DNA of 64,000 nt from an uncultured Clostridia bacterium (GTDB lineage: Bacteria; Bacillota; Clostridia; Oscillospirales; Acutalibacteraceae). Positions 43,119-55,943 of this stretch are shown here, piece by piece (position 1 is the first letter of the stretch; every line of letters begins with the position of its first letter). A program made the translations under genes and the position numbers. The DNA lies in assembly GCA_944384855.1 (NCBI GenBank), contig CALWUY010000071.1, positions 1 to 64,000 on the forward strand. Reading direction: 5' to 3'. Under the pieces are notes generated by a model that saw only the letters and a list, made by a program, of their open reading frames with translations, was not told the origin of the DNA and did not search any database.

Positions 43119-43979
43119 ATGAAAACTCGCATAATTTCGGGAATAGTATTATTTATTATAGTAGCGGCGGTATTGGCGGCGGGCATATTTATAAGCCCTG
43201 TCATTGTATCCTTTTTTATAGCTCTTATTTCGGCTAATGCCGTATACGAGCTGCTTAAAAACGCCGCCGGAATAAAGTCGAATACAGCACTGATCGGCAG
43301 TATGGTCTACAGCTTTTTAAATGTGTTTTTGCTGAACTGGGATTATAAAAATGTCCCTGATTTTTTAAATGTTTCATCACCTGTCGATTATAACGAAATC
43401 GCGCATTTCAGATCATCGCTGATACTTGGCACAGTTTATTTTATTTTTGCGGCGGTTATATGCCTTATTAAGCATAAAGACTTTAACCTTTCGCAGATAG
43501 CTGTACTATGTGCCATGCCGATTGCTGTTTCCTATGCTTTCAGCAGCCTCGGCACTATTTTAAATCATGACAGCGGAATATATTACCTGCTTCTGCTTAT
43601 CAATTTTTCATCTGTATGCGACATGGGAGCATATTTCACCGGAGTCACAATAGGCAAGCACAAGCTTTGTCCTGAAATCAGCCCGAAAAAGACGGTTGAA
43701 GGCGCAGTCGGCGGCATAATATCCAGTATAATAATTTCAGTCGTTATCATTTTATGTTTCGGACAGACGGGAAAAATGCTTATAACCCTATTGCTTACCG
43801 TTCCGTTCTGCATATTAGGAATGATCGGCGATTTATTTGCTTCTGTCATCAAGCGCTCGGTAGGGATCAAGGACTACGGAAATTTAATTCCGGGTCACGG
43901 CGGAATACTTGACAGGTTTGACAGCATATTAATGATTGCACCCTTATTGTATATATTTATAATTTTAGGTATACTGTGA
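43119..43979 (+). CDS. cdsA: Phosphatidate cytidylyltransferase
   Basis: Makes CDP-diacylglycerol from phosphatidate and CTP (286 residues). Integral membrane protein with about seven helices and the C-terminal signature, here SVGIKDYGNLIPGHGGILDRFDS, which carries the catalytic Asp residues. ATG follows GGAGG. Its stop overlaps the dxr start by one base (TGATG). Confidence 0.94.
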   Translation: MKTRIISGIVLFIIVAAVLAAGIFISPVIVSFFIALISANAVYELLKNAAGIKSNTALIGSMVYSFLNVFLLNWDYKNVPDFLNVSSPVDYNEIAHFRSSLILGTVYFIFAAVICLIKHKDFNLSQIAVLCAMPIAVSYAFSSLGTILNHDSGIYYLLLLINFSSVCDMGAYFTGVTIGKHKLCPEISPKKTVEGAVGGIISSIIISVVIILCFGQTGKMLITLLLTVPFCILGMIGDLFASVIKRSVGIKDYGNLIPGHGGILDRFDSILMIAPLLYIFIILGIL

Positions 43980-45133
43980 TGAAAAAACTATGTATTTTAG
44001 GTTCTACCGGTTCAATAGGAACTCAGGCTCTCGAGGTTGCCGAGAGGAACGGCTATACCGTAACTTCGCTGGCAGCCGGCAGCAATACAGCGCTTTTAGA
44101 AGTTCAGGCAAGAAAATTTTCAGTCAAATCGGTCGCCGTTTTCAACACAGAGAGAGCTAAAGAATTAAAGCTTAAATTGGCGGATACCGATATTAAAGTT
44201 TTATCAGGCGCAGAAGGGGTTTGCGAAATCACCCGCGACGACAGCGATATAGTGCTTAACTCCATTGTAGGTATCGCGGGGCTTCGTCCGACTCTTTCAG
44301 CCATTGAAGCCGGAAAAACAATAGCGCTTGCAAATAAAGAAACCCTGGTTACCGGCGGCGAAACAGTAAACCGGAAAGCAAATGAAAAAGGTGTAAAAAT
44401 AATCCCCGTAGACAGTGAACATTCCGCTATTTTCCAGTCCCTTCAGGGAGCGCCGGAAAAAAGCCTTAAAAAAATACTTCTTACCGCCTCAGGCGGTCCG
44501 TTTTACGGCAAAACAAGAGAAGAACTGGAGAATGTAACCATAAAACAGGCGCTTAACCATCCGAACTGGTCAATGGGAGCGAAAATAACGGTTGATTCGG
44601 CCACCATGATGAATAAAGGTCTGGAAGTTATAGAAGCGGTACATCTTTTCGGAATTACGGCCGATAATATAGAGGTACTGATACACAGACAGAGCATACT
44701 TCATTCCGGTGCGGAGCTCAGCGACGGCGCTGTGATAGCGCAGCTTGGAACGCCGGATATGCGGCTTCCGATACAGTACGCCCTGACATATCCCGACAGA
44801 AGCGACTTCGCGTTTGAACGTTTGAGTCTTGCAGATATAGGAACGCTTACCTTTGCGCGTCCGGATAATCGAACCTTCCGCTGCCTTCCGCTTTGTATTG
44901 AGGCGATAAAACGCGGCGGGCTTGCCCCGGCGGCGGTAAACGGCGCCAACGAGGAAGCTGTGCGCATGTTTCTTGAAGGCAGGATAAAGTTTTTGCAGAT
45001 TGCGGATTTTGTCGAAAAAGCGCTTGAATGCGTGAACAATAAAAAAGAATATACTCTTGAGGATATTTTTGAGACTGACAGAACATCAAGATTACTTGTG
45101 AAAAACAGTTCAAAACAAACTTCAAAACTTTAA
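43979..45133 (+). CDS. dxr: 1-deoxy-D-xylulose-5-phosphate reductoisomerase
   Basis: First committed enzyme of the MEP isoprenoid pathway (384 residues). NADPH loop LGSTGSIGTQAL (about 6-17), ALANKETLVTGG, metal/active-site VDSEHSAIFQ, TASGGPF, and HPNWSMGAKITVDSATMMNKGLEVIEA. ATG at 43979. With uppS and ispG in the same operon, three steps of isoprenoid and lipid carrier supply are grouped here. Confidence 0.96.
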   Translation: MKKLCILGSTGSIGTQALEVAERNGYTVTSLAAGSNTALLEVQARKFSVKSVAVFNTERAKELKLKLADTDIKVLSGAEGVCEITRDDSDIVLNSIVGIAGLRPTLSAIEAGKTIALANKETLVTGGETVNRKANEKGVKIIPVDSEHSAIFQSLQGAPEKSLKKILLTASGGPFYGKTREELENVTIKQALNHPNWSMGAKITVDSATMMNKGLEVIEAVHLFGITADNIEVLIHRQSILHSGAELSDGAVIAQLGTPDMRLPIQYALTYPDRSDFAFERLSLADIGTLTFARPDNRTFRCLPLCIEAIKRGGLAPAAVNGANEEAVRMFLEGRIKFLQIADFVEKALECVNNKKEYTLEDIFETDRTSRLLVKNSSKQTSKL

Positions 45134-45136
45134 AAA

Positions 45137-46201
45137 GTGGTGATAAATATTTCTTCGTTTTTAAATTTTCTCAACAATGTCTGGCCCTATTTGGTAGCGG
45201 TGCTTTTATTTTTGCTTCTGATTTTAATCCATGAATTCGGTCATTTTATAAGCGCTAAGCTTTTCAAGGTAAAAGTAAACGAGTTTGCGGTAGGTTTCGG
45301 ACCCAAGCTTTTTTCAAAAAAGGCAGGAGAAACCGTATACTCGGTAAACCTGATTCCTTTGGGCGGCTACTGTGCCATGGAAGGAGAAGACGAAAACAGC
45401 AGTGACAGCAGAGCATTCTGCAACAATGCGGCGTGGAAGCGTTTTATAATAGTAATAATGGGAGCGGTTTTCAACATTTTGTTAGGACTTTTGATTATTG
45501 CCATAATTTTAGCTCCCGAAAAAGCTTTCACCTCTACCACGATAGCTGAGTTCGAACCAAATGCTTTAAGTCAGCAGACCGGTCTTGCGGTAAATGACGA
45601 AATAATTAAAGTTGACGGCAGAAAAATTTACACCACCTACGATTTGAGTTATGCATTTACGAATATTGATGACGGTAAAATAGATATTACCGTTATGCGC
45701 GACGGCGAGAAAGTATTGCTCAAAGACGTCACCTTTGAAACCGAAGAAGAAAACGGAATCAGTTATTTAACGGTAGACTTTACGGTTTACGGAATTGAAA
45801 AGACATTCGGTTCATATTTGCGTCAGACCGTGGACACAGCGTTTTCATATTGTTCTGTAATATGGCGCAGTCTTTTTGATCTTATAGGCGGAAAATACGG
45901 TATCAGCGCGGTTTCCGGACCGGTCGGAGTAACGGTGGCGATAGGTCAGGCGGCAAAGCAGAGCCTTCTTAATATTTTACCGATAATGGCGCTTATAACT
46001 ATAAACCTCGGTCTTTTCAATCTGCTGCCGATTCCCGCGCTGGACGGCGGAAGGCTTTTGTTCATACTCATAGAAATGATATTCCGCAAGCCTGTTCCGC
46101 AGAAATACGAAGCCGCGGTACACACAGCAGGCTTTATATTGCTTTTTGCCTTTATGCTGCTGATATCGGCAAAAGATATATGGTCACTTATTGTCAATTA
46201 G
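45137..46201 (+). CDS. rseP: Site-2 intramembrane metalloprotease RseP/RasP
   Basis: A 354-residue M50 protease that cleaves anti-sigma factors and signal peptide remnants within the membrane. Zinc motif HEFGH in the first helix (about 32-36), a PDZ domain (about 130-200, NALSQQTGLAVNDEIIKVDG), and the third metal ligand in LLPIPALDGGRLLF. About four membrane helices. It begins with GTG without a strong ribosome site, three bases after the dxr stop, suggesting coupled translation. Confidence 0.94.
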   Translation: MVINISSFLNFLNNVWPYLVAVLLFLLLILIHEFGHFISAKLFKVKVNEFAVGFGPKLFSKKAGETVYSVNLIPLGGYCAMEGEDENSSDSRAFCNNAAWKRFIIVIMGAVFNILLGLLIIAIILAPEKAFTSTTIAEFEPNALSQQTGLAVNDEIIKVDGRKIYTTYDLSYAFTNIDDGKIDITVMRDGEKVLLKDVTFETEEENGISYLTVDFTVYGIEKTFGSYLRQTVDTAFSYCSVIWRSLFDLIGGKYGISAVSGPVGVTVAIGQAAKQSLLNILPIMALITINLGLFNLLPIPALDGGRLLFILIEMIFRKPVPQKYEAAVHTAGFILLFAFMLLISAKDIWSLIVN

Positions 46202-46225
46202 AACAAGGAAGCAGGAAACAATTTG

Positions 46226-47278
46226 ATGTATACCAACGATAAAACCGTTAAGGTAAAAGCAGGAAACGTTTTTATAGGCGGAGGAGCGCCGGTAACGGTG
46301 CAGTCTATGCTAAGCGTCCCGGCGCATGATACCGAAGGCAATGTTGATCAGGCGAGGCGTCTTGAGGCCGCCGGATGCGACATCATAAGGGTTACCGTAC
46401 CGGACATTGAGGCGCTCAAAACGGTAGAGGCGCTTAAAAATAATATTTCGGTACCGATAGTTGCCGATATTCATTTTGATTACCGTCTTGCTGTCGAAAG
46501 TGTGGCGGCAGGAGTCGACAAGGTGCGGATAAACCCGGGCAATATAGGCTCTGACGAAGGAGTCAGACAAGTAGCCGAAGCCTGCAAGAGAAAAAATGTT
46601 GCGATAAGGATAGGGGTAAATTCCGGATCGCTTGAAAAACATATTCTCTCAAAATACGGCGGAGTCACCCCCGAAGCCATGGTTGAAAGCGGACTTTACC
46701 ATATATCTCTGCTTGAAAAATATGATTTTAACGATATTGTGCTGTCGCTTAAGTCCTCCGATACAGCGACGATGTACCGTGCCTACGAGCTGGCAGCGCA
46801 GAAATGCCGGTATCCCCTGCATTTAGGGGTAACGGAAGCCGGAACCGAAAGCTCCGGAATTATAAAATCCGCCGCGGGAATAGGCGGACTGCTGCTGAGA
46901 GGCATCGGCGATACGATCCGTATATCCCTTACAGACGATCCCGTAAAGGAAGTTGAGGCGGGAATTAAACTGCTCAAAGCCATAGGGGTAAGAAAAAGCG
47001 GTCCGGTGCTTGTATCCTGCCCTACCTGCGGCAGAACTAAAATCAATCTTATAGACATCGCAAAGGAAGCCGAAAAAAGGCTTGAAAAAACCGATAAAGA
47101 CATTACCGTAGCAATTATGGGATGCGCGGTAAACGGTCCGGGAGAAGCATCTGCCGCGGACATAGGCATCGCGGGAGGCGACGGCTGCGGAGTGCTTTTC
47201 AAAAAAGGCGTGATAATCAGGAAACTGCCTGAGGAAAAGCTGTTAGACGCATTATTTGAAGAAATAGAAAAAATGTGA
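46226..47278 (+). CDS. ispG: 4-hydroxy-3-methylbut-2-enyl diphosphate synthase IspG (GcpE)
   Basis: Iron-sulfur enzyme of the MEP pathway (350 residues). TIM-barrel part starts VTVQSMLSVPAHD; the [4Fe-4S] ligands are CPTCGRTK and GCAVNGPGEA with the conserved Glu downstream. ATG at 46226 lies eight bases after AGGAA; a TTG one codon earlier is possible. Occupies the place held by proS in the Bacillus operon. Confidence 0.96.
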   Translation: MYTNDKTVKVKAGNVFIGGGAPVTVQSMLSVPAHDTEGNVDQARRLEAAGCDIIRVTVPDIEALKTVEALKNNISVPIVADIHFDYRLAVESVAAGVDKVRINPGNIGSDEGVRQVAEACKRKNVAIRIGVNSGSLEKHILSKYGGVTPEAMVESGLYHISLLEKYDFNDIVLSLKSSDTATMYRAYELAAQKCRYPLHLGVTEAGTESSGIIKSAAGIGGLLLRGIGDTIRISLTDDPVKEVEAGIKLLKAIGVRKSGPVLVSCPTCGRTKINLIDIAKEAEKRLEKTDKDITVAIMGCAVNGPGEASAADIGIAGGDGCGVLFKKGVIIRKLPEEKLLDALFEEIEKM

Positions 47279-47298: not shown

Positions 47299-50200
47299 TT
47301 GGGCAAGGCATTGCTGTCAGAATTATTCGGAACATATCTTACAGATTCGCTTGACGAAACCGCAGGCAAAGCTGTTGTTGAAAAATGCAGGCTTGATATT
47401 GAGAACCGTACGCTTGATATGGAGCTGTATTCGGAGAATTACATAGACCGCAAAACACTGAGTGATACCGAAAACGCTATAAAGACTGCGTTAAAATTAA
47501 ATGAACTTTCCGTCTGCTGCCGTTTTGACGGAGAATCGCTGTGCGGCAAAGCCTGCGCGGAGCTGGCGGCCGAACTGAAAATAAAGAATGCCGCATTAAA
47601 CGGTTATTTCAGCGACGCCGACTATCTGCTTACGGACGGCACGGTCAAAATAACCCTCAAACACGGCGGTTACAGAAAAATATGCGAGCTTTCCTTTAGT
47701 GAAAAATTCATCGCACTTGTAAAGGACCGTTTCAGCAAAGATATAAATGTTACCTTTGACGGACAGCTTGACGATGTTGAAATCGAGCTTCCCAAACCCG
47801 AAGTTCTGCAGCATACTTCTCACCAAAAGCCCAAAGTTTCAAAGGAATCAAACAGCAAAAAAGAAATAGTATTTGAAAAGCGAAAAGACAAGCCGCAAAA
47901 CTCACTGGTATATCTTGACGACCCCAAACTCTTTTACGGCAAAAAAATAGACAACCGTACAAAGCCTATGATAGAGGTTACGGGCGAAGACAGCGAAATA
48001 TGCTGCTGGGGAGAGGTTTTTGAAACCGAGATGCGCACTATAAACACAAGACGCGGCGAAACCAATATTTTCACATTTTCTTTCAGCGACCACACTAATT
48101 CGCTTACCGCCTCTATGTTTGTTGACCCTAAGCGCACACGGGAACTGGCGCCGGTCAAAGAAGGTGCTTTTATACTTGTAAACGGAAGTTATGAATTTGA
48201 CAACTATAAAAAAGAATTTACAGTAAAACCTTATTCTATCGCCCTGCTTCAGAAATACACCGATACCGACAGTTATGAAGGTGAAAAGCGCGTAGAGCTT
48301 CACTGTCACACCAATATGTCGGCAAAAGACGCTGTATCTTCCGCCGGGGACATTATAAATCAGGCGTACAGATGGGGGCATAAAGCAGTAGCAATCACCG
48401 ACCACGGAGTTGTGCAGGCATATCCGGCGGCAGCTCAGGCGGTTAAGAAAATACGTAAAAGCGGCGGCGAATTCAAGGTTATTTACGGCGTTGAAAGCTA
48501 TTTTGTAGACGATATAAGAAACGATATATCGTCTCTCAGCGCCAAGCAGATAGCAAAAATGCGCCATCATCAGATTATACTGGTAAAAACGCTTGAAGGT
48601 CTTAAAAATTTATATAAGCTTGTATCCGAAGCGCATCTTCACGATTTTCACGGCAAACCCATAACCCTGAGAAGCAAGCTTGACGCATTAAGAGACGGGC
48701 TGATCATCGGTTCGGCCTGCGAGCAGGGCGAGCTTTACAGCGCAATAATCGACGGAAAAGACAAAGAAGAACTGCTTAAAATAGCAGAATATTACGACTA
48801 TCTTGAAATACAGCCGTTAGGCAATAATGCTTTTATGATAAGGGAGTCCTCATTCCCGGACAAAAAAGATAAAAAGACCGGCGCGGTCATACCTAACCGT
48901 TTCCGGAATATAACCGATCTTGAAGCTATAAAAGATTTAAACCGCAAGGTTGTTGAACTGGCGGACGAGCTCGGAAAACCGGTTGTAGCAACAGGCGACG
49001 TACATTTTCTCAGGAAAGACGACGAAATAATCCGCAAAATACTGATGGCAGGTCAGGGATTCGACGATTTTGACAACCAGGCGCCCCTCTACCTTAAAAC
49101 TACCGAAGAAATGCTTGAAGATTTCAGCTATTTTGGTGACAGGGCTAAGGAGTTTGTAATTGATAATCCGAATAAAATTGCCGGCATGATAAGCGGTGAT
49201 ATAATTCCGGTGCCTGAGGATAAATATCCTCCGGTAATAGAGGGCTCAGACCAGCTGCTGAGGGATATCTGCTGGGGCAACGCGCACAGAAAATACGGTG
49301 AAACTCTTCCCGAAGTCGTGGAGAAACGGCTTGACAAGGAGCTTAATTCCATTATAAACAACGGATTTTCCATAATGTATATTTCCGCTCAGAAACTGGT
49401 TGCATACAGCGAAGAAAACGGATATCTTGTAGGCTCGCGTGGTTCGGTAGGCTCTTCGTTTGTAGCCACTATGGCCGGCATATCGGAAGTCAACCCGCTG
49501 CCGCCCCATTATGTATGCCCCAAATGTCACCACAGTGAATTCTTTACAAAAGGCGAAGTAGGTTCCGGATTTGACCTGCCCGAAAAAAAATGTCCTCACT
49601 GCGGAGAGTTTATGCTGCGCGACGGGCACGACATTCCGTTTGAAACCTTCCTCGGCTTTAAGGGTGACAAAGTGCCGGATATTGACCTCAACTTTTCGGA
49701 CGAATTCCAGACACATGTACAAAAATACACCGAGACCCTCTTCGGCAGCGAAAATGTTTTCAAGGCAGGTACAATATCTACCGTTGCGGAAAAAACCGCA
49801 TACGGTTTTTCAAAAGCCTATGCCGAGAAAAAAGGAATAACTCTCAGCAACGCCGAACTTAACCGATTGGCAAAACTGGTAGAAAAGGCTCAGATAAAAC
49901 AAACTACGGGTCAACACCCGGCAGGCATGATAGTTGTGCCCCGGGACAAGACAATATATGATTTCTGTCCGGTGCAGCACCCGGCCGACGATGTGAATTC
50001 CGATGTGGTAACCACTCACTTTGATTTTCATTCCATACATGATACCATTTTAAAGCTGGACGAACTCGGACACGTTATACCTACTACATATAAATACTTA
50101 GAGGAATATTCCGGCATATCCGTGAACGATGTCTCCATGAGCGACGAAAAGGTTTACAGTCTTTTCACTTCGACCGAAGCGTTAGGTGTGACGCCCGAGG

Positions 50201-51126
50201 AGATAGATTCCCAGACTGGTACATACTGCATTCCGGAATTCGGAACCTCATTTGTCCGCGGAATGCTTATAGACTGCAAACCCAGAAATTTTTCAGACCT
50301 TTTGCAGATTTCAGGGCTTTCTCACGGTACGGACGTTTATCTCGGCAACGCAAAAGATCTGATTGAAAACGGCACCTGCACCATTTCAGAAGTTATCGGA
50401 ACTCGTGACAATATAATGGTTTATCTTATACACAAGGGCATGGATGAAAGCAGAGCTTTCAAAATCACCGAAACCGTACGAAAAGGACTGGTAGCCAAAG
50501 GCAACGTTTCCAAAGAGGACTGGCAGGCCATGGAAGACGATATGCGCGCGGTGAATGTTCCGGAATGGTATATTAAAAGCTGTGAAAAAATAAAGTACAT
50601 GTTTCCGAAAGCTCATGCCGCGGCGTATGTTATATCGGCGCTGAGGGTAGCATGGTACAAAGTCTACCGTCCGCTTGAATTTTACTGTGCATACTTTACC
50701 GCGAGACCCGAAGATGTTGACGTGCCTGTAGTTATGCAGGGCAGAGAAGCCGTAAGAAGATACCTAAGCAATATTAAGGCGAAGGGCAAGGAAGCGACCA
50801 AAAAGGAATTGGATGTATATAACAATATGCTCATATTCAATGAGATGATGGCCCGTGGAATAGAAGTTTTACCTATAGACCTTAAGAAATCGCATGCGAT
50901 GAAATATATTCCGGAGGACGGGAAAATGCGGCTGCCTTTCGGAGCGCTGAGCGGAGTAGGTGAAAAGGCGGCATATTCGATATATGAAGCCGCGCAAAAA
51001 GGCAATTTTGTATCGAGAGAAGATTTTCAGATTGAATCAGGCGTTTCCAAAACAATTATACAGAACCTTTGGGATCTGGGTGCTATGAACGATCTGCCCG
51101 ACACAAATCAAATTTCTATGTTTTAA
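47299..51126 (+). CDS. polC: PolC-type DNA polymerase III alpha subunit lacking the exonuclease insertion
   Basis: The main replicative polymerase of Firmicutes. Order: N-terminal domain, OB fold (about 220-325), PHP start VELHCHTNMSAKDAVSS (from about 333), PHP remainder, polymerase with GSRGSVGSS, zinc module CPKCHH/CPHCGE, catalytic KVPDIDLNF and a helix-hairpin-helix C-terminus ending QISMF. At 1275 residues it is about 160 shorter than B. subtilis PolC (1437). Directly after GVESYFVDD (about 402-410), where other PolC proteins continue into VVFDVETTG and the rest of the DnaQ-type exonuclease, this one goes straight to HHQIILVKTLEGLKNLYKLV, the PHP part beyond the insertion. PHP metal residues (HCH, TDHG, HH, GDVH) appear intact. 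Confidence 0.94.
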   Translation: MGKALLSELFGTYLTDSLDETAGKAVVEKCRLDIENRTLDMELYSENYIDRKTLSDTENAIKTALKLNELSVCCRFDGESLCGKACAELAAELKIKNAALNGYFSDADYLLTDGTVKITLKHGGYRKICELSFSEKFIALVKDRFSKDINVTFDGQLDDVEIELPKPEVLQHTSHQKPKVSKESNSKKEIVFEKRKDKPQNSLVYLDDPKLFYGKKIDNRTKPMIEVTGEDSEICCWGEVFETEMRTINTRRGETNIFTFSFSDHTNSLTASMFVDPKRTRELAPVKEGAFILVNGSYEFDNYKKEFTVKPYSIALLQKYTDTDSYEGEKRVELHCHTNMSAKDAVSSAGDIINQAYRWGHKAVAITDHGVVQAYPAAAQAVKKIRKSGGEFKVIYGVESYFVDDIRNDISSLSAKQIAKMRHHQIILVKTLEGLKNLYKLVSEAHLHDFHGKPITLRSKLDALRDGLIIGSACEQGELYSAIIDGKDKEELLKIAEYYDYLEIQPLGNNAFMIRESSFPDKKDKKTGAVIPNRFRNITDLEAIKDLNRKVVELADELGKPVVATGDVHFLRKDDEIIRKILMAGQGFDDFDNQAPLYLKTTEEMLEDFSYFGDRAKEFVIDNPNKIAGMISGDIIPVPEDKYPPVIEGSDQLLRDICWGNAHRKYGETLPEVVEKRLDKELNSIINNGFSIMYISAQKLVAYSEENGYLVGSRGSVGSSFVATMAGISEVNPLPPHYVCPKCHHSEFFTKGEVGSGFDLPEKKCPHCGEFMLRDGHDIPFETFLGFKGDKVPDIDLNFSDEFQTHVQKYTETLFGSENVFKAGTISTVAEKTAYGFSKAYAEKKGITLSNAELNRLAKLVEKAQIKQTTGQHPAGMIVVPRDKTIYDFCPVQHPADDVNSDVVTTHFDFHSIHDTILKLDELGHVIPTTYKYLEEYSGISVNDVSMSDEKVYSLFTSTEALGVTPEEIDSQTGTYCIPEFGTSFVRGMLIDCKPRNFSDLLQISGLSHGTDVYLGNAKDLIENGTCTISEVIGTRDNIMVYLIHKGMDESRAFKITETVRKGLVAKGNVSKEDWQAMEDDMRAVNVPEWYIKSCEKIKYMFPKAHAAAYVISALRVAWYKVYRPLEFYCAYFTARPEDVDVPVVMQGREAVRRYLSNIKAKGKEATKKELDVYNNMLIFNEMMARGIEVLPIDLKKSHAMKYIPEDGKMRLPFGALSGVGEKAAYSIYEAAQKGNFVSREDFQIESGVSKTIIQNLWDLGAMNDLPDTNQISMF

Positions 51127-53067: not shown

Positions 53068-53628
53068 TTATTCGTATATATCCTCAGAACCCATTTTACG
53101 CTGCCACTTGCCTTCAAGCCAGATCACATTCCCGCTTTGAAGTGATTTCCTGACATCTATTATCCGCTGGTTTGAAGAACCCCGGAAAATAAGATCGGGA
53201 CTTTTAAGTTCTTCTACAAATTTGCCGTCCACCAAAACGTCAATATTTGAAAGAATTTCTTTCACCGCATCCCCGTTTCCTACCGCACCCACAAGCAGCT
53301 GCGTGTCATACAGAAACCCGGTATAACACCATATATCCTTATCCGGCAGCCTACTGCGGATTTCTTTTAAAAGTCTGCATATTCCATCCTGATTTTCAGG
53401 TTCAAACGGTTCCCCTCCGAGCAGCGAAAATCCCTGAATGTACGCCGGTTTAAGTGCGCTTATTATTTCTTCGGCAGTGTCGTCTGTAAACTCGCTTCCG
53501 TAAGAAAAATCCCATGCTTCGCTGTTGAAGCAGTTTTTACACCTGTGCCGGCATCCGCTTACGAAAAGCGATACCCGTACGCCCGGACCGTTTGCAATAT
53601 CAAATTTTTTTATAACTGCATAGTTCAT
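53068..53628 (-). CDS. nrdG: Anaerobic ribonucleotide reductase activating protein
   Basis: Radical SAM activase that installs the glycyl radical on NrdD (186 residues). Cluster motif CRHRCKNC (CX3CX2C) in VSGCRHRCKNCFN, followed by SLLGGEPFEPENQ. The ATG at 53628 follows AGGA by seven bases; the longer frame upstream lacks similarity. It is separated from nrdD by a hairpin. Confidence 0.94.
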   Translation of the reverse strand: MNYAVIKKFDIANGPGVRVSLFVSGCRHRCKNCFNSEAWDFSYGSEFTDDTAEEIISALKPAYIQGFSLLGGEPFEPENQDGICRLLKEIRSRLPDKDIWCYTGFLYDTQLLVGAVGNGDAVKEILSNIDVLVDGKFVEELKSPDLIFRGSSNQRIIDVRKSLQSGNVIWLEGKWQRKMGSEDIYE

Positions 53629-53702
53629 TACAAAATCCTGCCCCTGCAGCTGTCTGACAAAGTCACGCCGCAATAAAAATTATTTTAAATTTCTGTACTA
53701 AA

Positions 53703-53735
53703 ATATTCGGAGGGGTAGTAAATCCCTCCGAATAT
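53703..53735 (-). terminator. Hairpin between nrdD and nrdG
   Basis: Inverted repeat ATATTCGGAGGG / CCCTCCGAATAT (12 bp) followed on the minus strand by TTTTAG. Probably a partial terminator or RNA-stability element giving more NrdD than NrdG. Confidence 0.6.
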
Positions 53736-53756
53736 CTGCACTTTAACGGAAAATTA

Positions 53757-55943
53757 TTATAGATGAAGCACTCTTTCCTTTATTTCCTGCGTTCTTCCCT
53801 GATTCCAGAACTGTGTACCAATATAACCGCAGGTTCTTCTCGCAACATTCATCTTATCCTGATCGGTGTTGCCGCAGTTAGGACATTTCCAAACAAGTTT
53901 TCCGTGTTCATCTTCCTCAATACCGATTTCACCGTCATATCCGCACTCGTGACAGTAATCACTCTTAGTATTAAGTTCTGCGTACATAATGTTGTCATAA
54001 ATGAACTGCATTACAGAAAGCACCGCATCGATATTATTCTGCATATTGGGAACTTCTACATAAGAAATTGCTCCTCCGGGAGACAAAAGCTGGAATTTGG
54101 ACTCCAAAGCCAGCTTGTCGAAAGCATCGATAGGTTCTCCTACATGAACATGATAGCTGTTGGTAATATAATTCTTATCGGTAACTCCCTTAATCACGCC
54201 AAACCGTTTCTGCAGACATTTGGCAAACTTATAGGTAGTGCTCTCAAGCGGAGTTCCGTAAAGCGAATAATCAATGTTTTCAGCTTTCTTCCACTTTGCA
54301 GTATATTCATTAAGCTTTTTCATTATCTCAAGACCGAGCTCTTCTCCTTCAGGCTCGGTAAGCTTTTTGCCGTTCATGCTGTAAACACATTCCCAAAGTC
54401 CCGCATAACCTAAAGACAGCGTGGAATAACCGCCGTGAAGATATTTATCTATAGTTTCGCCCTTTTTGAGCCTTAACAGCGCTCCGTACTGCCAAAGGAT
54501 AGGCGCAGCATCGGAAACAGTACCGGTCAGTCTCTCGTGACGGCTCTGAAGAGCTCTGTGACAAAGCTCCATACGCTCATCGAATATCTTCCAGAATTTA
54601 TCCATATCCTTATCTGCCGAAAGACCTATATCAACAAGGTTTACCGTAACGACACCCTGATTGAATCTGCCGTAATATTTAGGCTTGCCGTTTTCGTCAA
54701 CATAAGGCGTAAGGAAACTGCGGCATCCCATGCAGGTATAGCAGTGACCTTCACCGTTTTTATCTATCTTGTTCTCAAGCATCATTTTCTCGGAAATATA
54801 GTCGGGCACCATGCGCTTGGCAGTACACTTGGCAGCGAGCTGTGTCAGATACCAGTATTTTGTTCCCTCTTTTATATTGTCTTCCTCAAGCACATAAATA
54901 AGCTTTGGGAAAGCCGGAGTTATCCAGACTCCTTTTTCATTTTTAACTCCCTGATACCGCTGCTTGAGTACCTCTTCGATTATCATTGCAAGATCCTGTT
55001 TTTCCTGCTCGTTCTCAGCCTCGTTAAGATACATAAATACCGTTACGAAAGGAGCCTGACCGTTTGTGGTCATAAGGGTTACAACCTGATACTGTATAGT
55101 CTGCACACCCTTGCGCACCTCTTCCCTGAGACGCTTTTCGGCGATCTGCTTTATGCTCTCATCGTTTATTTCCACACCGGCGGACTCAAGTTCGGCTTTA
55201 ACATCATTATACAGCTTTTTGCGGCTTATATCCACAAAAGGAGCAAGATGTGTAAGGCTTATACTCTGTCCTCCGTACTGGCATGAAGCTACCTGCGCTA
55301 TAATCTGAGTCGCTATATTGCAGGCTGTGGAAAACGTATGCGGCTTTTCAATGTACGTGCCGCTGATAACCGTTCCGTTCTGAAGCATATCCTCAAGATT
55401 TACCAGATCGCAGTTATGCATATGCTGCGCGAAATAGTCGGCGTCATGAAAATGGATAATTCCCTGTTCATGAGCCTCTACTATATCGGGAGCCAGAAGA
55501 ATACGTTTAGTAATATCCTTGCTTACCTCACCGGCCATATAGTCGCGCTGAACACTGTTTACCGTAGGATTTTTATTTGAATTTTCCTGTTTTACCTCTT
55601 CGTTGTTGCATTCGATAAGGCTTAAAATCTGTTCGTCCGTGGTGTTGGATTTTCTCACAAGCGCGCGGTTATACCGGTAGGTTATATACCGGCGCGCAAC
55701 ATCAAAGGCGCGCTGATTCATGATTTGGTCTTCTACCATATCCTGTATTTCCTCTACGCTCAGCGAGCGGTTAATGTTGGCTGCCGCGCTTTCCACGTCC
55801 TCCGCTATACGCTTTATCTGCACCTCAGACATACGTGCGCTCGGAACCACGCTTTGATTGGCTTTTGTAACGGCTATAACAATTTTTTCGGGGTTGAATT
55901 CTACCTCTGCACCGCTTCTCTTGATTATTTTCATTTTTTGCAT
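53757..55943 (-). CDS. nrdD: Anaerobic (class III) ribonucleoside-triphosphate reductase
   Basis: Oxygen-sensitive glycyl radical enzyme making dNTPs (728 residues). An N-terminal ATP cone (about 1-95, KIIKRSGAEVEFNPEKI) gives allosteric activity control. The catalytic body includes HDADYFAQHMHNCDLVN and AQVASCQYGGQS. C-terminal zinc Cys pairs are CHEC and CPNC, and the glycyl radical site is RRTCGYIG (Gly about 706). A NrdR-type box lies just after the predicted transcription start. Confidence 0.96.
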   Translation of the reverse strand: MQKMKIIKRSGAEVEFNPEKIVIAVTKANQSVVPSARMSEVQIKRIAEDVESAAANINRSLSVEEIQDMVEDQIMNQRAFDVARRYITYRYNRALVRKSNTTDEQILSLIECNNEEVKQENSNKNPTVNSVQRDYMAGEVSKDITKRILLAPDIVEAHEQGIIHFHDADYFAQHMHNCDLVNLEDMLQNGTVISGTYIEKPHTFSTACNIATQIIAQVASCQYGGQSISLTHLAPFVDISRKKLYNDVKAELESAGVEINDESIKQIAEKRLREEVRKGVQTIQYQVVTLMTTNGQAPFVTVFMYLNEAENEQEKQDLAMIIEEVLKQRYQGVKNEKGVWITPAFPKLIYVLEEDNIKEGTKYWYLTQLAAKCTAKRMVPDYISEKMMLENKIDKNGEGHCYTCMGCRSFLTPYVDENGKPKYYGRFNQGVVTVNLVDIGLSADKDMDKFWKIFDERMELCHRALQSRHERLTGTVSDAAPILWQYGALLRLKKGETIDKYLHGGYSTLSLGYAGLWECVYSMNGKKLTEPEGEELGLEIMKKLNEYTAKWKKAENIDYSLYGTPLESTTYKFAKCLQKRFGVIKGVTDKNYITNSYHVHVGEPIDAFDKLALESKFQLLSPGGAISYVEVPNMQNNIDAVLSVMQFIYDNIMYAELNTKSDYCHECGYDGEIGIEEDEHGKLVWKCPNCGNTDQDKMNVARRTCGYIGTQFWNQGRTQEIKERVLHL

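Follow-up and report, generated by a model that had tools for sequence, protein, structure and literature searches.

The window analysed here, a 64,000-nucleotide stretch of DNA from an uncultured Clostridia bacterium, carries a polC gene without the DnaQ-like exonuclease domain found in its relatives, which raises the question of what, if anything, proofreads the polymerase it encodes.

A PolC lacking its exonuclease domain

An earlier note on this DNA, made from the letters alone, described an otherwise complete PolC without the exonuclease, and our results agree. The polC open reading frame (47299..51126, + strand, TTG start) is intact over 1275 amino acids, which fits the note's clean removal rather than decay. 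The protein scored above cut-off against both NCBIfam PolC equivalogs (NF001688, 1391.7 bits against 873; TIGR01405, 1268.8 against 1043.45), with the best-matching stretch starting downstream of the exonuclease position. A Pfam search matched PHP, DNA_pol3_alpha, finger and HHH_6, and gave no RNase_T (PF00929) at E<=0.001. The AlphaFold model (residues 215-1275) matched Geobacillus kaustophilus PolC 3f2c with TM scores of 0.88/0.94, the best Foldseek match being the 3F2B/C/D construct.

By profiles, alignment and model, the N-terminal, OB, PHP, Pol3 and HhH parts are all present, and all lie on the + strand. An approximate N-terminal domain region (47299..47900), placed only by alignment to the N-termini of other PolCs, is followed by an OB-fold region at about residues 225-324 (47971..48270), seen as a beta-rich block in the model with OB-fold structural matches. 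The first part of the PHP domain (residues 330-405; 48286..48513) holds ligands H335, H337, D344, H369 and E399. An 18-residue linker (residues 406-423; 48514..48567) stands where relatives have a DnaQ-like exonuclease of about 190 residues, and the second part of the PHP domain (residues 424-574; 48568..49020) holds H424, C474, D567 and H569. The polymerase core and fingers (49021..50538) include PDIDLNF at residue 793, KLDELGH at 919 and a Cys4 module (C740, C743, C765, C768, counted from the sequence). A helix-hairpin-helix region and the C-terminal QISMF, which we take to be clamp-binding-like, complete the protein (50857..51123). From the intact motifs and the fold, polymerase function is predicted to be normal. 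Relative to the polymerase core, the OB region (window 47971-48270 and relatives) evolves faster in the exonuclease-less genus, with ratios of 2.43-2.49, than in exonuclease-bearing relatives, with 1.91-2.35, at like divergence.

We measured the junction as the spacing between PHP ligands 5 (Glu) and 6 (His), the loop in which the PolC exonuclease sits. This spacing is 25 in the window PolC (E399 to H424) and 20-25 in 42 sequences of its genus, against 213-215 in 14 exonuclease-bearing members of the same family. Two exonuclease-bearing members of family f17 had a spacing of 200, and ten other exonuclease-less PolCs had 12-40. Published residue numbers give 23 for Taq DnaE (E72 to H95), 14 for E. 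coli DnaE and 215 for G. kaustophilus PolC (PMC3666897). The alignment comprised 68 PolC rows, including 39 of 48 loci from named public assemblies (frames over 1250 aa; nine shorter ones were dropped), and the gap falls at the identical place in the 14 exonuclease-less rows shown. The motif GVESYFVDD does precede the junction, as the note had it, at residues 397-405 rather than about 402-410, and is followed by HHQIILVK, whose second His is residue 424. The note also equated the length deficit (1437 against 1275 residues) with the lost domain; the deficit is near the domain's size, with about 190 residues missing and small insertions elsewhere offsetting part of them.

The window genome is a draft of 2.69 Mb in 96 contigs (97% complete), so an assembly or binning artefact had to be considered, as did a non-replicative paralogue. 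Both are refuted in practice. Among the matches listed, 58 of the 61 genomes of the genus (each at least 80% complete; drafts of 10 or more contigs) carried the same junction within a single open frame; the exonuclease-less PolC was full-length in 51 of them (frames of 1272-1308 aa) and partial in seven. For the other three (G197, G205, G250), these matches included no PolC stretch covering the junction. The insertion was found in 0 of the 44 named loci that cover the junction, the remaining four of the 48 (L042, L047, L048, L049) starting past it. The window gene lies at the canonical polC locus, marked by the conserved upstream neighbours dxr, rseP and ispG (43976..47278, + strand; names by eye), which stood beside polC in 17/17 loci checked, exonuclease-bearing and exonuclease-less alike. 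The window genome has no second full-length PolC, nor any other PolC, and a single DnaE.

Two further observations concern the surroundings of polC and its homologues. Two ORFs of 201 and 728 aa (53068-55943, - strand) resemble by eye an anaerobic ribonucleotide reductase and its activase. A second, divergent PolC-like gene occurs in at least five genomes of the genus (L157:5808-8006 in G224, L156:3082-5811 in G220, G245:C139, G246:C3 and G198:C31); the two examined, those of G224 and G220, gave no RNase_T match. The neighbour of the G220 gene encodes a DnaB-like helicase, a hint of a mobile element.

Repeated loss of the exonuclease

The exonuclease-less state is derived, with at least four changes on the PolC tree. 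In a tree of 29 PolCs built with the exonuclease columns left out, four state changes are needed, forced by the starred branches, and the count was 4-4 across bootstrap trees, although some branches are long (G101, G120). A single clade for the ten exonuclease-less rows of families f1 and f17 was rejected (p-AU 1.5e-64). The exonuclease-bearing G130 of genus g8 groups with the window genus g1 (support 96/95), and the domain is present in both genomes seen of this sister genus (G130 and G370). A second tree of 37 rows, which used 8 of the 39 aligned named loci (the 29-row tree used none), was concordant. We read the direction as loss because PolCs of 18 other families of the order are exonuclease-bearing: their listed rows have PolC frames of exonuclease-bearing size, and the domain was confirmed within the PolC frame in 64 genomes from these families, chosen by hand for a long PolC frame. 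The note's alternative of an ancestral exonuclease-less state is rejected by the PolC trees and these families, exonuclease-less PolCs having arisen at least four times among exonuclease-bearing ones.

Excision of the exonuclease into a gene of its own was also considered and is unsupported: a branch (98/93) separated 22 PolC exonucleases from 20 stand-alone proteins. Family f9, of the same order, presents a separate case. Of its ten genomes (G008, G029, G043, G056, G069, G081, G092, G103, G113, G123), nine matched the PolC query with DnaE-like sequences only, and the tenth, G081, had PolC-like pieces containing stop codons; this family may have lost PolC.

Stand-alone exonucleases

The earlier note had suggested that a separate DnaQ-like protein proofreads in trans, an idea that proved unsupported for the window genus while stand-alone DnaQ-like genes do occur in some other exonuclease-less lineages. 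No stand-alone DnaQ/epsilon gene was found in the window genome (97% complete draft; PF00929 at E<=0.1), and PF13482 had no match there. The single PF00929 protein returned is a 305-aa exonuclease (C53:125101-125565) with a zinc-ribbon-like C-terminal stretch, adjoining a typA-like gene (by eye). Its best NCBIfam match is KapD, yet it scores below the KapD cut-off and far below those of DnaQ; we describe it as KapD/ERI-1-like.

Across the 61 genomes of the genus, a search with PF00929 at E<=1 gave a match above the cut-off in 57. Setting aside shortened matches and those in the KapD-like range, a label that for the ~300-aa proteins of the genus means size and profile range (the sequences read being those of the window genome and G130), only three remained: G225 (182 aa), G218 (523 aa) and G208 (617 aa). 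A profile made from nine DnaQ and Exo domains agreed with this picture, within which a very divergent exonuclease could escape the profiles in draft genomes. The G225 contig may be foreign because its DnaE part shares 54-60% identity with two DnaEs from the genus, and those two are 67% identical to each other (whole length). The G208 protein, at the end of contig C29 (L155:5325-7175), joins in one frame a terminase-like piece (by eye), an exonuclease and part of an exonuclease-bearing PolC, a chimera that is probably a misassembly. The G218 protein (L162:1306-2874) continues at length beyond its DnaQ-like exonuclease, into a C-terminal extension that is BRCT-like by eye, and a 332-aa protein of G078 looks similar.

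A KapD-like protein is also found in the exonuclease-bearing sister G130 (306 aa, read by eye), and the exonuclease-bearing G034 and G062 have PF00929 matches of KapD-like size and profile range, judged from range rather than sequence; it is therefore no replacement for the lost exonuclease. Outside the window genus, 16 of 17 exonuclease-less genomes carried a DnaQ-like gene (PF00929, E<=1e-17), comprising 10/10 in f2, 3/3 in genus g33 of f17 and 3/4 in f1; one exonuclease-less genome with zero PF00929 matches, G164, has a PolC divided between two contigs. These counts do no more than suggest compensation in trans, because 22/64 exonuclease-bearing genomes of the 18 other families have a second match at the same threshold. 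In f1 and f17 the same holds for 5/16 exonuclease-bearing genomes, with KapD-like sizes in three of these five. In an independent pairs test (four pairs, KapD-size matches excluded), an average of 2.7 pairs favoured the association, 0.0 opposed it and 1.3 were tied, with a median p of 0.25.

The stand-alone proteins are of more than one kind. Eight of the ten f2 matches used form one clade, and G121 and the first G022 match lie elsewhere on long branches (the second G022 match was left out of the exonuclease tree). The DnaQ type of G182, G120 and G188 also occurs in the exonuclease-bearing G110. On two contigs, one exonuclease-less (L138 of G111) and one exonuclease-bearing (L125 of G110), a stand-alone DnaQ-like gene lies ~8-11 kb from polC. 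In a family-wide search of 140 genomes, 79 by hand count had a PF00929 match in a frame of at least 1300 aa, and in five further ones the frame looks shortened by contig ends. No PF00929 match at E<=1e-16 was found in 38/140, a count from this search alone and apart from the PolC genes, so the DnaQ-poor state may extend past the window genus.

The PHP site and possible proofreading without DnaQ

The earlier note's statement that the PHP metal ligands look intact was borne out for all nine. They read HHDHEHCDH in the window PolC, matching the full set HHDHEH[C/H]DH, and are the same in 68/68 aligned PolCs, exonuclease present or not; this pattern fits the PHP motif counted as active in PMC12926913. 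The one PolC PHP for which we found an activity report, that of G. kaustophilus, is inactive (PMC3666897); its sole ligand difference is an Asn at position 8, a change to which PMC5636811 attributes the lack of activity. The window PolC has Asp567 at this position. For DnaE, PMC5636811 reports exonuclease activity of the Taq PHP and inactivation of the Mycobacterium tuberculosis PHP exonuclease by mutation of D23 or D226. The DnaE of the window genome shows the same PHP motifs (by eye), and a MutS_I domain was found in 59/61 genomes of the genus.

We looked for added constraint on the PHP domain after exonuclease loss and did not clearly see it. Ratios of PHP to polymerase divergence in the genus and in exonuclease-bearing family members were alike within spread: across three bins of divergence the genus gave 1.49, 1.37 and 1.18, and the exonuclease-bearing members 1.83, 1.44 and 1.19, with just 7 exonuclease-bearing pairs behind the 1.83. 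Since the ligands are equally conserved in exonuclease-bearing PolCs and the ratios are alike, there is no sign that the PHP domain took over new work.

On present evidence, the window protein would be the replicative PolC orthologue of the genus, from whose PHP loop the inserted DnaQ-like exonuclease has been lost. The loss leaves a short loop, DnaE-like in length, beside the PHP metal centre. Removal of errors would most likely fall to mismatch repair and the PHP sites of the two polymerases, PolC and DnaE, because the protein has no DnaQ domain and nearly all species of the genus have no stand-alone DnaQ-like gene beyond the KapD-like one, within the limits of the draft genomes and profiles used. 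Of the proposals in the earlier note, proofreading by the PHP site is accordingly the one that fares best, as a prediction from sequence. We think it probable, with real reservations, that this PolC works as a replicase and that any proofreading is done by its own PHP site and that of DnaE. More tentatively, this may be a PolC replisome without a DnaQ-type proofreader in cis or in trans, edited by the PHP metal centre, in an order of gut Clostridia that dropped the DnaQ exonuclease several times because a working older proofreader persisted.

The main competitor, distinctly less probable, is that replication goes without proofreading, fidelity resting on polymerase selectivity and mismatch repair while the PHP ligands serve a structural role or some other hydrolysis. 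Conservation of the ligands with or without the exonuclease, the unchanged PHP constraint, the retained MutS and the inactive G. kaustophilus PHP (PMC3666897) count in its favour, but the window PHP site is complete, including the Asp missing in G. kaustophilus. Somewhat less likely again is a stand-alone DEDD exonuclease acting in trans, whether the KapD-like 305-aa protein, the only PF00929 protein of the window genome and the one generally seen across the genus, or an unrecognised one. The stand-alone genes of 16/17 exonuclease-less genomes elsewhere speak for it; against it stand the KapD-like proteins and second matches of exonuclease-bearing genomes, the low NCBIfam scores of the 305-aa protein and the pairs test. 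Editing by the PHP sites remains our preferred reading, and the genus offers a natural test of whether a PolC PHP domain proofreads: either PolC edits through its PHP site or a replicase lives unproofread in a genus apparently without a DnaQ proofreader. At the same locus, for example, g1 lacks the exonuclease domain and g8 has it, and g33 and g44 of family f17 form another such pair.

The architecture itself was described in 2013 and is less surprising than the earlier note assumed. According to Timinskas 2013 (PMC3919608), 6% of PolCs have no Exo insertion (16% in the PolC+DnaE1 group), and these are restricted, one exception aside, to Clostridia and Negativicutes. The window PolC corresponds to this variant in NTD, OB, PHP, Pol3 and HhH, with no Exo insertion, a PHP domain otherwise whole, a clostridial host and one DnaE alongside. 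One survey of PolC in gut bacteria retained only proteins with an RNase_T insertion (PMC11963600), and exonuclease-less PolCs would therefore be missing from it. In the literature on exonuclease-less PolC that we found, including the available parts of PMC3919608 and PMC12926913, no paper maps the losses or asks what compensates for them. Where the parts of the 2013 paper at hand neither map events nor treat replacement, the genus here also has no recognisable DnaQ-type substitute, and this is the part that we have not found in print. Most Clostridia have three active proofreaders, the PHP of PolC, the PHP of DnaE1 and the DnaQ of PolC (Timinskas et al. 2026, PMC12926913); of these, the window genus would retain the two PHP sites. 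In the G. kaustophilus crystal construct (3F2B/C/D) the exonuclease was removed for crystallisation (PMC12592400), whereas the deletion in the window PolC is natural, and position 8 of the PHP site is Asn there and Asp here. With the PHP-proofreading DnaE of M. tuberculosis and Thermus (PMC5636811), the window PolC shares a PHP centre of nine ligands and, at the position of the PolC exonuclease, a loop of short to medium length; those are DnaE polymerases with reported activity, and in the window PolC the activity is predicted.
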